Origin: Candidatus Poribacteria bacterium
Lineage (GTDB): Bacteria; Poribacteria; WGA-4E; WGA-3G
Direction: 5' to 3'
Assembly (NCBI GenBank): GCA_022822085.1
Contig: JAJECK010000052.1
Location: forward strand, 1-36,199
Length of the DNA: 36,199 nucleotides
Numbering within the stretch: the first letter of the stretch is position 1; each line of letters starts with the position of its first letter. Shown here piece after piece: positions 27,314 to 34,178 of the stretch. The notes under the pieces were generated by a model. The model saw only the letters and a program-made list of their open reading frames with translations, did not search any database and was not told the DNA's origin. The position numbers were made by a program, and so were the translations under genes.

Positions 27314-27436
27314 AAACGCAATAGTCCTTGGCTGTATGATTTATTGTATGTTATTTTAAAACTTATTCTACTATCGGCTCTATTTAACAATCGTGGTATT
27401 ATAACCAACCTACATGCATTTGTCAATTCACTTTTG

Positions 27437-27467
27437 ACTAAATCAAGGTGATTTAGTTTTAAGAATT
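27437..27467. repeat. Hairpin plus 17-bp motif, second copy of the 9254-9288 repeat
   Basis: ACTAAATCA (27437-27445) and TGATTTAGT (27449-27457) form a perfect 9-bp stem with a 3-nt loop. The motif ATTTAGTTTTAAGAATT (27451-27467) is identical to 9272-9288. The rest of 27314-27580 has no supported gene. Confidence 0.5.
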
Positions 27468-27580
27468 TTCAGTTTGTGAGTTTAACTGTTAGTCCCATAG
27501 ATCGGATTGATTTTGCTTATCAGATTACGACTCTTTAGTCCAGTCAGGACGCAATGTTTATAAAAAATATTGTCTAACCT

Positions 27581-27826
27581 TCTTGAGTTCTGTCCGAACG
27601 GCATATAATGAAAAACATATCGTCCCTAATGAAGATAAAAAAATAATCTCGGTCCTGTGGCGAGGTTAGGAAGAAATCAAGAAATCAACGGTATGAATGA
27701 CATTTAGTCATTCCCCGGGTATGAATGCCATTTAGGCATTCCCCGCCTCGCCAGCAGGAGTACAACTGCCCTCGTCCAGAAGGAAAGGACCCAATTAATA
27801 AGTTAATCTTCGGACAGGACTAAAGA
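27581..27826. mobile_element. 246-bp element with imperfect 18-bp terminal inverted repeats
   Basis: Left end TCTTGAGTTCTGTCCGAA (27581-27598) and right end 27809-27826 are inverted repeats matching at 16 of 18 positions. The interior has no coding frame but contains an outer stem enclosing two covarying hairpins. A relative of the right end recurs in the same orientation at 31478-31513, and TCTTTAGTCC also occurs just outside at 27532-27541. No clear target-site duplication is seen. It could be a MITE-like element or a structured intergenic repeat. Confidence 0.5.
27654..27758. ncRNA. Stem enclosing two tandem, compensatorily varied hairpins
   Basis: An outer 12-bp stem with one bulge pairs CCTG and TGGCGAGG (27654-27665) with CCTCGCCA and CAGG (27746-27758). 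Inside are two contiguous 28-bp copies, 27690-27717 and 27718-27745. Their hairpins are GAATGAC-ATTTA-GTCATTC and GAATGCC-ATTTA-GGCATTC. The only two differences between copies are the two bases that pair with each other, an A:T pair against a C:G pair. This supports selection on, or copying of, a folded structure; which strand is transcribed is unknown. Confidence 0.5.
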
Positions 27827-27920
27827 CACGGACAATATACCGAAGGACAACATTAACGGAATAGCAAAGAATCCTCGAAAATATTGAAAACTAAATAACC
27901 TTGTTGATTAATTGGAAAAC

Positions 27921-27949
27921 TTGAATTAAATAGATAATTTTGGTATAAT
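27921..27949 (+). promoter_or_regulatory. Sigma70 promoter of the 1128-aa pseudo-helicase gene
   Basis: TTGAAT at 27921-27926 and a perfect TATAAT at 27944-27949 are 17 bp apart, 42 bp before the start codon at 27992. AGGAGG follows at about 27975, some 12 bases before the ATG, rather far for a ribosome-binding site. Confidence 0.65.
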
Positions 27950-27991: not shown

Positions 27992-30900
27992 ATGGACTCT
28001 CTGAAAGATATTATCCAGCAATGTCATCAACGACATGAAAAACCTCTTCGTCAACGTAAAACAGAGGCAACACCTGCGATGTATACAAAGAGTCACCCGC
28101 ACCAGTACACTGTTTACTGTGCGCACCGTTATCCTGTGATGCTTCATGACTTGGAACAAGCACATATCTCTTTCATGCCTATTGGGCGCGCCCCTTGGAA
28201 CGATCAGGGCCCACAGGATTATAAGGGCAAACGGTTCTTGAAACGTCAAGGAATAACGGATTGGGAGACTAAACAGTGGAATGACTCGTGGGGTATTAAG
28301 ATATATACAGGTATCCCATCAGAATGCAAAGGCGCACGATGGCACAATTTGCACTTCAAGTATGAGGCAATCTGTGCAGCACCCGATGCTGTTGCCGATT
28401 GCATTGAAGCACTTGTTAGCATTGTGAATAACCCGCTCTTGACATTAGGGAAGTCTGGCGGACTCCGCTTCTCCTGTAGAGTCCAAGATTATCTTCATTT
28501 TAATACAGAAGCAGCGAAATTGTATATCTACAAAGACACCCTGAAGGCAGAAAATACCTATCATCGTGACGTGTATCTTGAGATATTTGGTGAAGAAGGA
28601 CATACACGCTGGGATGCGCGCTATGAAATCCTCACTGGAAACCTATTGAACCTACCAATCATTGACAAAGAGGTACTCTTCGCTCCTATTGATGTCCTCC
28701 GTGCGAGACTTCACAAACCTGCTCCTGATAACACGGAAGCGAAACAAATTGTCACCCGTGTCCCCCTATCTCTCGGGTCAGAGAACCTTGATCTTGCCAA
28801 AGAAGCGTTCTTGCAACGTGGATTTTCTTACATCCGAAAAGAGGACGATATTCACCGCTGGACTCAATCTAAAGAAACTGATGGTGGTGATGAGGTATCA
28901 CTATTTGAAAGTGACGGGGGCGTATGGATCCGCGCAGCCATGCCTAACAGCGGGCTACCGACTCGGCCAACACTAATCACAGATGTTTGGGACGATACAG
29001 GTATTTCCTTCCTGATAGATAATGAAACACCTCCTATTCACGGTAAAATGAAGCAGGTCCAAAAAGAAGAACTCAGTCCATTAGCGATAAAGAGACCGCC
29101 TCCCGTGTTAGGACAAGATGATAACACCGAAAAGGATAAGATACTCCAAAGGGATGTGTTTCAAATAGAGCACGTGTTTGACCGGGGTGTACGCATTCTT
29201 GGAATCATTACAGGTATAGGACCGTGGGACAAACAAGCAGAAGAAACGTATTTCCATAGCGGTGGTGCGATTACCGTGAATACACCCGATATGAAATTTG
29301 CAGAGGGAGCGGAAAGATACTTTCAAGAGCAGAATATGCCATCGGTTGTCTACTGGAAACCGAGAACACACCTCTGGGAAGAAGTCAAAGATATCCCCGT
29401 CCAAGAACGTATGAATGCTCCATTTCAAAAAGGAAACGTCTGTGAAGATGCGGAAAGGTGCATCGCGCTTGAGGCGAAAGGCGGAAACCCAAATGAAAGC
29501 ATCTGTCCACAGTGTCCTGTCTATGCTGAGTGTCAGCAACGCGGATACTTATCCCAATTTCCCGTGTCACAAAATGCCAAAGTACAATTGTTGACGATTC
29601 CGCAACTGTTTTTTGACCCGCAATATTCCGAATTAGTTGAACAGTTACTCCAACGAGAAGATGAAACCGAACGTCTTTGTGTTATCAACCAGCAGCGAAC
29701 ACATAAGTTATTCCTCGAATGCAAACTCTCAAAAAACGTTATGGAGGAATGGACTACGATCTGGCAAGGTTTTGAATTAGGGAACTTCGCCAAAACATTG
29801 CTCAGTGCATTAGATATTAAGGACAAACTATACGGTGATGCTGTCAAAGGTGTCCGTGCAGTGATGCAAACCTTTGAATGGCAAGAAGAAAGGCTTGTAG
29901 AGCAAATGTGTCAAGTGATTGCACACGGTAGGTTAGTCAAACAGAAGTTCGTTGACCCTGATACCGAAGAGACATTGGCACGGTTTATCATCAAATTTGA
30001 AGGTGGCACCTCTGCATTCATTCCCATAGACAATAGTGCCGCAGACAAACTCAAAGAAAAAGGATTATCCATTTTTCTAAAATCTTTTCCACTTAATGAA
30101 ACCGTAAATGTTCCGATGTCATTGTTGCAAGCTATTGAGTTAGGTATCTTGAATACAGAAACTGTTGATAGCATTCAGCAGCTTCCAACCGTTTGTCGAC
30201 AGCAAGATTGGACATATTGGCACCAACTCAAACGGTTCTTCACATATTACAAAAGAGACACTGACGCGCCGATCCGCTGGGATGGTGAAGTTCTCCGCTT
30301 TTGGGTGCCCCCGGTACTACACACGAGCGTCAAACGCCTTTTATTGGTATCCTCAGTCTTTTCTGATGAACATCTCCACAGAGTGTTTCACGATGGAAAC
30401 TTACAGACCCATTGGACTGAACCCATACCATGGAGCCACGGAAGCCGCGTCTTTCAGGTTCGCACAGGCACCTATTCATCGGAAGCAATTCTTGATGACA
30501 ACAACTGGGGGGCTGCCAGACTCTCCGAAACAGGACAACGTTTCCTTCGCGGTATCCAAACGGAGATTGAGGCAGATTTGAGCATTAAACATGGAATTAT
30601 AACCAATAAAGATATTGCCAGACATTTGGATGCTATCGCAAAGCAAAGGAACGTATGCTTCGTAGATGATTTCAGAAAAATCAGAATGTCAGACACTATT
30701 TCTGAAGATGCAGATGTCGTATGGGTAATTGGAACGCCGCGGCGCACAACGACTGCTATTTGGCAGCGCGCCCAGATGTTGTTTGGAAACGCTGAAGAAA
30801 CGCTCTCTTATGAAATCGATACAGAAACCGGCACCTATAAAGACCCACGGCTACAAAGTATTTACGAGGAAGATGCAATTTATTCACTCACCGAGATTAT

Positions 30901-31378
30901 TCTAAAAGCTGAATTGGATAGATTGACGGATAGGCGGATTGTGTTGATAGCAGGGGTCCCACTTCCTAATATTACCAACAGACCTGAAACAGCCATCTTT
31001 GACTGGGAAGATTTTGAGATTGCCGATGGATTAGATAAACTCCCTGAGATAATCGCCATACGCGAACGCTTTGAACAAGAGCGGGAAAACTTAACGGCTG
31101 ACTCCAGTAGAGAGGAAGTGCAGCGGGTATTGGGGTGTTCCCAAAGACAGGCAAACCGAGTCTTGCAAAGACTTAGAGGCGGGAATATCCCACGTAAAAC
31201 CTTCCGAGAGCAAATCCTCTCACTCCTCACGAACGGTGAGAAGAAAACAGCCGAAATCACTGCTGCCATTGACGGGCACCCAGAGGCGGTCCAACACGAA
31301 CTCACACGCCTCGTGGAGTCCAATGAAATCGTCAGAATTCGTCGTGGTGTATATGCTTTACCTAAACCCGAACAATAA
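27992..31378 (+). CDS. Large protein resembling an Fe-S SF2 helicase with eroded ATPase motifs
   Basis: This 1128-aa protein has no signal peptide. The N-terminal region (about 30-245) is unassigned; KSGGLRFSCRVQDYLH (154-169) is faintly like the SGG-H element of primase-polymerases, which is weak. From about 385 the order of segments follows XPD/DinG-like helicases. A motif I position reads ITGIGPWDKQAE (406-417) where GxGxGKT is expected. A five-Cys cluster at C484, C490, C505, C508 and C514 (ICPQCPVYAECQQRGYLSQ) is followed by LLTIPQLFFDP. A motif II position reads CVINQQRTH (563-571) where DEAH is expected. Later parts look like a helicase C-domain (KRLLLVSSVFSDEHLHRVF near 780; QRAQMLFGN near 935). 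Two DNA-binding-like modules end the protein: an HTH (VQRVLGCSQRQANRVLQ) and a winged helix in the last 58 residues. Both nucleotide motifs appear lost, so ATPase activity is doubtful. It is flanked by repeat elements. The family call is by-eye inference. Confidence 0.7.
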   Translation: MDSLKDIIQQCHQRHEKPLRQRKTEATPAMYTKSHPHQYTVYCAHRYPVMLHDLEQAHISFMPIGRAPWNDQGPQDYKGKRFLKRQGITDWETKQWNDSWGIKIYTGIPSECKGARWHNLHFKYEAICAAPDAVADCIEALVSIVNNPLLTLGKSGGLRFSCRVQDYLHFNTEAAKLYIYKDTLKAENTYHRDVYLEIFGEEGHTRWDARYEILTGNLLNLPIIDKEVLFAPIDVLRARLHKPAPDNTEAKQIVTRVPLSLGSENLDLAKEAFLQRGFSYIRKEDDIHRWTQSKETDGGDEVSLFESDGGVWIRAAMPNSGLPTRPTLITDVWDDTGISFLIDNETPPIHGKMKQVQKEELSPLAIKRPPPVLGQDDNTEKDKILQRDVFQIEHVFDRGVRILGIITGIGPWDKQAEETYFHSGGAITVNTPDMKFAEGAERYFQEQNMPSVVYWKPRTHLWEEVKDIPVQERMNAPFQKGNVCEDAERCIALEAKGGNPNESICPQCPVYAECQQRGYLSQFPVSQNAKVQLLTIPQLFFDPQYSELVEQLLQREDETERLCVINQQRTHKLFLECKLSKNVMEEWTTIWQGFELGNFAKTLLSALDIKDKLYGDAVKGVRAVMQTFEWQEERLVEQMCQVIAHGRLVKQKFVDPDTEETLARFIIKFEGGTSAFIPIDNSAADKLKEKGLSIFLKSFPLNETVNVPMSLLQAIELGILNTETVDSIQQLPTVCRQQDWTYWHQLKRFFTYYKRDTDAPIRWDGEVLRFWVPPVLHTSVKRLLLVSSVFSDEHLHRVFHDGNLQTHWTEPIPWSHGSRVFQVRTGTYSSEAILDDNNWGAARLSETGQRFLRGIQTEIEADLSIKHGIITNKDIARHLDAIAKQRNVCFVDDFRKIRMSDTISEDADVVWVIGTPRRTTTAIWQRAQMLFGNAEETLSYEIDTETGTYKDPRLQSIYEEDAIYSLTEIILKAELDRLTDRRIVLIAGVPLPNITNRPETAIFDWEDFEIADGLDKLPEIIAIRERFEQERENLTADSSREEVQRVLGCSQRQANRVLQRLRGGNIPRKTFREQILSLLTNGEKKTAEITAAIDGHPEAVQHELTRLVESNEIVRIRRGVYALPKPEQ

Positions 31379-31548: not shown

Positions 31549-31637
31549 TACCAAATTAACAGGATATATCTTGTTTTATTGGAGTCAGGTGCGGTTAGGA
31601 AACCGCACCTACCGAGACGAATCACGTTAATTTGGTA
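31549..31637. mobile_element. 89-bp MITE-like palindrome with 12-bp terminal inverted repeats
   Basis: TACCAAATTAAC (31549-31560) and GTTAATTTGGTA (31626-31637) are perfect inverted repeats flanked by TAA on both sides (31546-31548 and 31638-31640), a possible target duplication. At its centre is a 9-bp stem, GGTGCGGTT/AACCGCACC (31588-31609), the same palindrome as at 4501-4522. There is no coding capacity. A non-autonomous element mobilised in trans is likely. Confidence 0.6.
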
Positions 31638-31707
31638 TAAACTCCTTGTTCCACTCATTCAATGAATAGTCATAAAACTTAAATAACCCTGCAAAATTAG
31701 TTTTAAT

Positions 31708-32000: not shown

Positions 32001-34178
32001 ATGAATAATCAGCTTTTACACAGGAAAGTGTTATTTTCCTTGATGGCTGTTATAATGTGTTTGGGATTCACAGCATTGAGTTACGGAGCAGTCACCGTTT
32101 CTGTTGATCCCGCTTCAGTAGAATCCCCTGCGGTTGGGGAACAATTGACCGTAAATATAAATGTTGCGGGGGGCGCAGGTATAGTAGGCTTTCAAGCACA
32201 AGTCAACTATGACAATACTGCACTTAGTTATGTTTCCGCTGCAAAAGGAGATTACCTTCCTGGAGATCCTGCTGCAGGAACATTTTTCCCAGTGTTGCGC
32301 CCGGGTGATTCCCACGTCGTAATTGGTGGAACGGCAATTAATGTAGGAACCGGAGATGGTGATGGCACACTTGCAACGGTTACCTTTGAGGTTCTTGAGG
32401 TGAAAGCATCCTCTATTAGTCTGACTGACGTTACTCTTTCTGATGCTGCTGCTCAGAGTTTGGATGTCACAACTGCAGATGGAGCGGTTACTGTTCCCGC
32501 CCCCGATCCAGAGCCTGAACCCGATCCAGAACCAGACCCGGAACCTGAACCCGATCCAGAACCAGACCCGGAACCCGTTGTTCCCGAACCCCAAGTGTTC
32601 AGCATTACCCTCACAAACCTAACCACGGGTGAACCAGGAATGGGTGGACAAATCTTCTCACCCCCGATCTTTGCATCCCATCCCGCTGGTGCTAAACTCT
32701 ATGAAGTTGGTCAACCTGCAAGCGAAGCACTTGTCTTGCTTGCTGAAGGTGGAGACACCTCAGGACTCGCTGCACTCGCAGCAGCCGTTGGAGCAACACC
32801 TGTCATGGGAGATGGTATGGTTTTACCAGGTGCATCTGTTACCGTGATGGTATCCGCAGACGCTATGAACTCCGCACTCTCACTTGCAACAATGTTGGTC
32901 TCAACAAATGATGCCTTTATTGGAACTACTGACTTAGCCTTGTATGATGAAATGGGTATGCCAATTTCAACAACAATAGACTTAAGATCTTACGATGCGG
33001 GTAGTGAGCAGAATACCGAACGTGGCACAGATATTCCTGGTCCAGTCGGTCTACCTGCAGATGAAGACCCAATGGGATCAAATAATCGTGTTCCCACAGA
33101 AGGTGGCGTAATTACACCACATCCCGGTATCATGGGAGTTGGCGATGTCTTACCATCATTTGCATGGGAAGAACCGACAGCGATGCTGACAATTGCCCCT
33201 TATGTACCAGAACCACCACCAGAACCTGAACCCGTTATACCTACTTATGACGTGACACTTGCATCTGGATTGAATATGATTTCAGTTCCGTTGATGCCGG
33301 CAGAACCCTACACAGCAAAATCTCTTGCAGAAATGTTAGGGTCAACGGTTGTCATTAAGTTGGATACTTATTCACAGAGTTTTGTGGGGTATGTCGTTGT
33401 TGAAGATGACGACGGTTTCGCAATTGAAGGTGGAAAAGGATACATCGTTAATGTGCCAGAAGGTGGAACGGTAACCTTTAGTGGTCATGCATGGTCTAAT
33501 GAACCAGCAGAAATGCCTGCGGAAGAAGCAGCTATGGAAGCCGCCGCTGCACCAAAGATACCTACCACTTCAAGTGCTTGGGCATTTATTGTTACAAGCA
33601 ACTTGCAGGAGAAAGTCAGTGGTGCTACTTATACGATGGTAGCCAAAAACCTCCGTACAGGTGTTGTTACCACCGAAACAGTTACCAGTGAAGATGGATA
33701 TGTCTCTGCTGTTTGGGCAGATGTCAGTCAGAAAAGCGTCGTGGAAGCTGGGGACAAAATTGAGATCTCAGTTCTTGACCAAGATGGCACTATTGTGTCC
33801 GGTCCGTTCCAACGCACAGTCCAATCCACTGATATTCACAACGCATATATGAATGTCCAGATGCGTGTTGGCGATGTCCGTCCACAAGATACTATTCTTG
33901 GACAGAACTTCCCCAATCCGTTCAACCCAGAGACCTGGATACCCTATCAGTTGAATCGTGATTCCAACGTTATGATTACGATTTATGATGTATCCGGTCA
34001 TACAGTTCGGGAATTAAACTTGGGGCATAAATCAACTGGTTCGTATATGACGAATTCAAGTGCAGCCTATTGGGATGGTAAGAATGAAGCAGGCGAGCAT
34101 GTTGCAAGCGGTATTTATTTCTATTCGCTCCAAACAGCGAATTTCTCCGCTACACGTCGCATGGTCATTCTCAAGTAG
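32001..34178 (+). CDS. Secreted cohesin / spondin-N / FlgD-T9SS-like sorting-domain protein
   Basis: This 725-aa exported protein has AAGGAG before the ATG and a signal peptide ending ALSYGA. Modules in order are as follows. A cohesin-type domain (about 30-168) has VGFQAQVNYDNTALSYVSA and GTLATVTFEVLE. An acidic Pro-Glu-Asp linker (about 170-198) is built of PDPEPEPDPE units. A spondin-N domain (about 199-405) has FSITLTNLTTGEP and the hallmark TMLVSTNDAFIGT. A second PEPEP linker follows, then a beta domain (TYDVTLASGLNMISVPLMP, about 415-500). The last module is a FlgD/T9SS type A-like sorting domain with QNFPNPFNPETWIPYQL, IYDVSGHTVREL, YWDGKNEAGEHVASGIYFYSL and a terminal RRMVILK. Cohesins bind dockerins, and spondin-N domains often bind matrix glycans or glycoproteins, so a role at the cell surface or host matrix is plausible inference. 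A strong terminator follows. Confidence 0.9.
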   Translation: MNNQLLHRKVLFSLMAVIMCLGFTALSYGAVTVSVDPASVESPAVGEQLTVNINVAGGAGIVGFQAQVNYDNTALSYVSAAKGDYLPGDPAAGTFFPVLRPGDSHVVIGGTAINVGTGDGDGTLATVTFEVLEVKASSISLTDVTLSDAAAQSLDVTTADGAVTVPAPDPEPEPDPEPDPEPEPDPEPDPEPVVPEPQVFSITLTNLTTGEPGMGGQIFSPPIFASHPAGAKLYEVGQPASEALVLLAEGGDTSGLAALAAAVGATPVMGDGMVLPGASVTVMVSADAMNSALSLATMLVSTNDAFIGTTDLALYDEMGMPISTTIDLRSYDAGSEQNTERGTDIPGPVGLPADEDPMGSNNRVPTEGGVITPHPGIMGVGDVLPSFAWEEPTAMLTIAPYVPEPPPEPEPVIPTYDVTLASGLNMISVPLMPAEPYTAKSLAEMLGSTVVIKLDTYSQSFVGYVVVEDDDGFAIEGGKGYIVNVPEGGTVTFSGHAWSNEPAEMPAEEAAMEAAAAPKIPTTSSAWAFIVTSNLQEKVSGATYTMVAKNLRTGVVTTETVTSEDGYVSAVWADVSQKSVVEAGDKIEISVLDQDGTIVSGPFQRTVQSTDIHNAYMNVQMRVGDVRPQDTILGQNFPNPFNPETWIPYQLNRDSNVMITIYDVSGHTVRELNLGHKSTGSYMTNSSAAYWDGKNEAGEHVASGIYFYSLQTANFSATRRMVILK

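Follow-up and report, generated by a model that had tools for sequence, protein, structure and literature searches.

The window, by which we mean the whole 36,199-nucleotide stretch analysed here, belongs to the 5.6-Mb draft genome of a Candidatus Poribacteria bacterium, a sponge symbiont. It holds a nest of repeats that neighbours a SpoIIE/cNMP gene with 86-87% identity to its counterpart in the closest named relatives. Downstream of the nest lie a gene for an 1128-aa protein (27992-31378), whose sole domain match is a short, C-terminal AbiEi_4, and a gene for a cohesin/spondin-type protein with a FlgD/Por-tail C-terminus (32001-34178). The nest's sequence resolves into five layers of small mobile DNA elements of different kinds, where each layer occupies the hairpin centre of its outer neighbour or lies close to it (Table 1).

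Table 1. Features of the nest, with its five layers numbered from the outside in.
Feature	Position	Strand	Remark or basis
Layer 1, outermost MITE	27444..27903
Left TIR of outermost MITE	27444..27470	+	family consensus CAGGGTTATTTAGTTTT
Right TIR of outermost MITE	27877..27903	-	sequence
U1, uninterrupted REP-like hairpin of IS200-type family	27531..27564	-	consensus TCTTTAGTCCCGTAGGGACGATATGTTTATAGA
U2, second, degenerate REP-like hairpin	27581..27610	-	left arm of an 18-bp inverted repeat (see text)
Layer 2, IS200-type end hairpin (level-0)	27613..27826
U3, left half AAACATATCGTCCCTA	27613..27628	+	third REP-like hairpin, split in its loop; intact counterparts at L064, L235
U3, right half GGACAGGACTAAAGA	27812..27826	+	sequence
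Layer 3, MITE A, 183-bp IS630-type MITE	27629..27811	+	ends ATGAAGATTAA / TTAATCTTCAT; in loop of U3
Layer 4, REP palindrome GGCGAGG...CCTCGCC
GTGG head of REP palindrome	27657..27660	+	sequence; directly at stem foot
5' arm GGCGAGG	27659..27665	+	full form GGCGAGGTTAGGAAACCTCGCC
3' arm CCTCGCC	27746..27752	+	sequence
Layer 5, AATCAA-tagged hairpin module	27673..27745	+	inserted in REP loop; copies without module read GGCGAGGTTAGGAAACCTCGCC; filled and empty palindromes in own genome
Two AAATCAA tags	27674..27688 (27674-27680, 27682-27688)	+	sequence
Hairpin 1	27690..27717	+	stem GAATGAC / GTCATTC
Hairpin 2	27718..27745	+	stem GAATGCC / GGCATTC

Ends of the outer MITE occur 155 times in the genome against one match to the reversed pattern, the control that we also used for the genome-wide counts of the MITE A end and the half palindrome given below. 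Complete copies span 150-424 bp, a length set by their contents, and several are flanked by target duplications of 8-9 bp, such as GCTCTAACT and TTTACTATA; the 9-mers flanking the window's copy, TGACTAAAT and TTGATTAAT, give only a degenerate match to such a duplication. Comparison with orthologous DNA upstream of the SpoIIE gene shows similarity that mostly stops at 27435-27443, at the left end of this MITE. An empty site for the whole nest was sought at the orthologous locus, and since the gene at 27992 was not found beside the SpoIIE gene in 47 loci of relatives, it is only the nest's left boundary that this comparison supports. The first-pass annotation had taken an 18-bp imperfect inverted repeat (27581-27598 and 27809-27826) as the outermost enclosure. 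This repeat is present and 89% complementary, but does not form a structural unit: one arm lies in U2, the other is made up of the right half of U3 together with three bases of the end of MITE A, and as we read the arrangement the repeat is a by-product of two inverted neighbouring REP-like copies. The inverted repeat that truly encloses the nest is formed by the two TIRs, at a greater distance from the centre (27 bp, 85%).

The nest sits between two divergent promoter-like sites, TTGACA-17-TATAAT on the minus strand (27398-27426) and TTGAAT-17-TATAAT on the plus strand (27921-27949), each with its -35 hexamer about 18 bp from an outer MITE end. TGTCAA stands at a similar distance from several other copies of the outer MITE, and an insertion preference of this element next to promoters is possible.

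The source is a draft genome whose contigs are broken at repeats. Seven contigs of this genome, G000 (C34, C65, C69, C88, C105, C126, and C130), begin about 80-140 bp before an outer MITE end, which indicates that the assembly breaks at nests and that copy numbers are probably underestimated. The loci were partly picked by similarity, and the counts are weakened by a lack of independence among the copies, some of which have inherited their junctions from a common ancestor.

Hairpins U1-U3 share the pattern TATAAACATATCG-TCCC..GGGA-CTAAAGA, and the 33-bp level-0 palindrome reads TTTAGTCCCGTAGGGACGATATG. Hairpins of this kind flank IS200-type Y1 transposase genes on both sides at L162 (NF033573, 88 bits) and L165, with a variant at L160, and these transposases are the likely mobilisers of the level-0 layer. 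The MITE A layer likewise has a candidate parent. Its ends are found 345 times genome-wide against 3 in the reversed control, and at locus L197 of the same genome they enclose an IS630-family transposase (NF033545, 181.7 bits) with a TA duplication, which makes L197 the likely autonomous parent and mobiliser of MITE A. The duplication is clear at L197 and in several copies (with TA on both sides at L231 and L045); at MITE A of the window only the left TA is kept. For another MITE frame, frame B (TATAGTAAAATCC), the search for an IS630 parent came up with a single candidate, L199, which is degenerate and matches at one end only.

The half palindrome of the REP layer, GGCGAGGTTNNNNA, occurs 510 times in the genome versus 7 in the reversed control. 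GT[AG]G heads define REPs (PMC6006769), and this palindrome carries one within 2 nt 5' of its hairpin, as GTGG in the window and as GGTAG before the palindrome at L166, while frame B copies read TTGG instead of GTGG. A RAYT gene is flanked by arrays of the GCGAGG palindrome in three genomes, at L166 in this one (NF047646, 112.5 bits with a cut-off of 80) and at L205 and L212 in two relatives, and is likely the mobiliser of the REP layer. In tandem arrays of the GGCGAGG palindrome (L070, L166, and L071:17780-17960), some units have an AATCAA hairpin in their loop and others do not. Further poribacterial RAYT genes (L195, L207, L209, L214, and L216) each have GTAGG-headed palindromes of their own, for example GTAGGTTGGGTTGAG.., TGTAGGAGCGAGCTCC.., and GGTAGGAGGGGATTCC... 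A second REP-like palindrome in the window, GGTGCGGTTAGGAAACCGCACC (31560-31640), has the same AGGA loop with a different compensated stem, and is enclosed by a different pair of TIRs (ATACCAAATTAAC / GTTAATTTGGTAT), making up a third MITE frame.

At the centre of the nest, the first-pass annotation had described two contiguous 28-bp copies that differ only at two mutually pairing bases, held within a common stem, and both observations are borne out. The copies at 27690-27717 and 27718-27745 are 93% identical. An A/C and a T/G difference separate them, at two positions that pair with each other in the 7-bp stem GAATG(A/C)C / G(T/G)CATTC, and CCTGTGGCGAGG pairs with CCTCGCCAGCAGG around both hairpins with one bulge. 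The annotation had also proposed a search for further copies, and these are abundant. By pattern count the hairpin core has about 68 exact copies in the genome, and the 291-bp element gives at least 67 matches there (40 of 342 candidates scored). A search of 40 genomes finds matches in 23, this one and all 17 others of the genus included, and confines them to 3 of 13 genera.

The stems covary, which upholds across copies and genomes the earlier argument that compensation means the fold matters. Among 35 distinct hairpins from this genome and its relatives, 97.5% of cells pair, 4 of the 7 pairs of the main stem have changed on both sides (16 cells), and the covariation score of 0.173 is reached by none of 500 shuffles and far exceeds that of slid controls. 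Independent compensation is present in other copies and genomes, and intermediates changed on one side only, GAATGCC..GTCATTC, also occur. The argument applies less to the doublet at 27690-27745 itself, which is inherited: the same pair of A:T and C:G hairpins recurs elsewhere in this genome at seven loci (C13, C54, C80, C103, C109, C143, and C158), and comparison of these copies indicates that the compensated doublet is one old event passed on to many of them.

Predicted folding of the element is far from chance (z of -5.9 as RNA and -5.6 as DNA against shuffles). Strong folding and covarying stems are what a structured non-coding RNA or RNA-stability element would leave behind if selection kept its fold and the repeats were its dispersed copies, but covariation is also expected of DNA hairpins read by Y1 transposases. 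Moreover, the window has no Rfam match at the gathering threshold, frames unrelated to one another and many different palindromes host the same hairpins, sites occur both empty and filled, and transposases are flanked by the same palindromes. No terminator-like site was found at the element. We therefore regard a structured RNA, which the first-pass annotation had listed as an option, as highly improbable. Another of its three options, a hairpin-dependent mobile element, gains good support from the many copies, the empty and filled sites, the likely transposases for three layers, and the covarying stems.

The AATCAA modules do not fit the known REP classes. In the distinct modules that we collected, the head is AATCAA and not GTAG/GTGG or CGTC, and the same module occurs in other host palindromes of relatives. 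A search through the Y1 genes of 21 genomes turned up no transposase for the family; each one inspected had its own, different REPs, and where AATCAA hairpins flank a Y1 gene (L196, L211) they sit inside the loops of that gene's own REPs. AATCAA was also considered as an IS605-type TCAA or TTGAT cleavage site, but a canonical right end would have its tag on the other side. Judged by its head and stem, the AATCAA hairpin is an orphan REP-like family that belongs to neither the GTAG nor the CGTC class.

The build of these modules bears on how they grow. Of 42 distinct modules, 34 contain as many tags as hairpins, with the tags placed ahead of the hairpins. Simple tandem duplication would make tags and hairpins alternate, as they do at L139, and the prevailing order suggests that a tag-plus-hairpin unit inserted at the tag/hairpin junction of an older copy. 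Hairpins within hairpins might instead be built by template switching or slippage as palindromes replicate, with no transposase involved. Tandem hairpins, a variable number of tags, and one-sided intermediates are all typical of slippage, and the failure to find an AATCAA transposase in the 21 genomes agrees with it; however, slippage alone does not deliver a sequence-specific AATCAA unit to unrelated palindromes and genomes, and three other layers have likely transposases. We consider such an origin very unlikely.

Junctions between layers point to insertion into the loops of existing palindromes. At L196, several intact occurrences of CGCCCCTC/CGGGGC accompany two copies in which an AATCAA module fills the site marked by the slash, and at L089/L090 an empty form, CAGGATTTTCA/GGATT, is obtained by joining the flanks. 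Two loci (L064 and L235) carry the same outer MITE with uninterrupted level-0 hairpins, as opposed to the split U3 of the window. All 19 MITE flank pairs that could be placed, not all of them independent, break the 33-bp level-0 consensus at positions 11-14, which is its loop, with up to 3 nt allowed at the junction; one further, weak flank match (L074) fell elsewhere on the consensus. Flanks of MITE A are more complementary to each other than mismatched pairs are (the observed mean is reached in 6 of 2000 permutations), as are those of AATCAA modules (32 of 5000), whereas frame B MITEs of the same genome have no such bias (1831 of 2000); the score is blunt, since the arms are short, the mismatched controls come from the same palindromes, and a few chance pairs are included, and for this reason breakpoints on the consensus palindrome were used in addition.

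Nesting also runs in both directions. The IS630 transposon and its MITEs are found inside the loops of AATCAA hairpins (L197, L082, and L022), and in the window AATCAA hairpins are found inside a REP borne by such a MITE; at L197 the IS630 parent occupies the loop of an AATCAA hairpin that is itself within a level-0 hairpin. Some AATCAA insertions lie near the tag of a palindrome and not in its loop (L209, L214). With each element in or near the hairpin centre of one outside it, hairpin loops are suggested to be a preferred landing site for bacterial mini-transposons.

It is conceivable that the elements are mobile while loop targeting is only apparent, arising by chance and inheritance as a few ancestral composites were amplified and as TA- or AT-rich intergenic sites were used. 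Several copies do share inner junctions while differing in their outer flanks; the inner junction CTTCGGAC.GGACTAAAGA is common to the window, L004, L029, L035, L042, and L046, and every break in the GGCGAGG loop falls at one and the same point. Yet the same 33-bp level-0 consensus holds four other TA sites and the 19 placed pairs break at the TA of the loop, the loops of many different palindromes are used (27 target clusters), nesting is reciprocal, and frame B MITEs of the same genome are without bias. We consider this explanation unlikely.

Taken together, the sequence evidence makes it very probable that small mobile DNA elements, mostly non-autonomous, have nested at this locus, and that the majority of them inserted in or near the centre of a pre-existing palindrome. 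No sign of present-day movement was seen. Palindromes would extrude as hairpins in single-stranded or supercoiled DNA, and it would be the DNA hairpin, single-stranded or cruciform, and not RNA that transposases recognise, both as substrate (REP, IS200, and AATCAA) and as landing site. Y1 transposases of the RAYT and IS200 types act on hairpins of this kind (PMC6006769, PMC8266576). The IS630 element may favour TA in hairpin loops, with MITE A having landed at the TA of a level-0 loop, and a tag-plus-hairpin unit entering the tag/hairpin junction of an older copy would produce the order tag-tag-hairpin-hairpin. Because each insertion enlarges the content of a palindrome but keeps its arms, the nest stays a hairpin and a target, and composite nests could then spread with their outer elements. 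A broader proposal, which we put forward tentatively and with somewhat less than even confidence, is that extruded hairpin loops serve this lineage as a general landing site, used by mechanistically unrelated transposases, DDE-type IS630 and HUH-type Y1 alike, and that AATCAA hairpins are a new REP-like class with a putative mobiliser of their own, multiplying by loop insertion, including into their own copies, with one tag and one hairpin per event.

Individually, the layers are of known kinds; what is new is the depth and reciprocity of the nesting, the presence of parents and empty sites within one lineage, and the AATCAA-tagged family. REPs mobilised by RAYT/TnpA-REP are likewise short, GT[AG]G-headed, high-copy intergenic palindromes with covarying stems and a flanking Y1 gene of the RAYT family (PMC2817692, PMC6006769, PMC8266576), but here the REP is inside MITEs and its loop is occupied by the hairpins of another family. 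GTAG REPs also lie regularly within other, long palindromes in Anabaena variabilis, Thermomicrobium roseum (GTAG-23), and Halothiobacillus (CGTC-1) (PMC3733652); those cases have one level, are mentioned in passing, and have no identified parents, whereas the present nests have four to five levels, are reciprocal, and come with parents and empty sites. Palindromes also serve as transposase landing sites for ISs that target REPs (PMC1525189), where a full IS enters a REP, while the present nests consist of miniature elements that have entered one another time and again. IS630-family MITEs such as Correia, RUP, and Nezha (named in PMC2817692 and PMC3733652) are similarly short and share their ends with an IS630 transposon, and they are flanked by TA, as several of the copies here are, but the MITEs described here carry a REP between their ends and land in hairpin loops. 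The open-licence papers that we searched yielded none that treats nested loop insertion or a poribacterial nest of this kind.

Little is understood of the way REP hairpins move, one reason being that a copy standing alone has few junctions that can be read. When the insertion is into another repeat, its junctions are exact and can be counted. Here they come with empty sites in the same genome and with likely transposases, which opens the targeting of loops by Y1 and IS630 transposases to direct tests in a natural system of selfish hairpins piling up inside each other. The AATCAA family, for which the 21 genomes yielded no transposase, resembles the CGTC-tagged REPs (PMC3733652), tagged hairpins that lack a dedicated one, but it differs from them in tag and stem and has no CGTC head. 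The stacking can go deeper still: at L036 and at L069:10252(-) the AATCAA hairpin has itself received an insertion of a further hairpin family (CATGGAGCATGCCATACGCGCATGCTTC; GCGAATACGCGTATGGTATTCGC).
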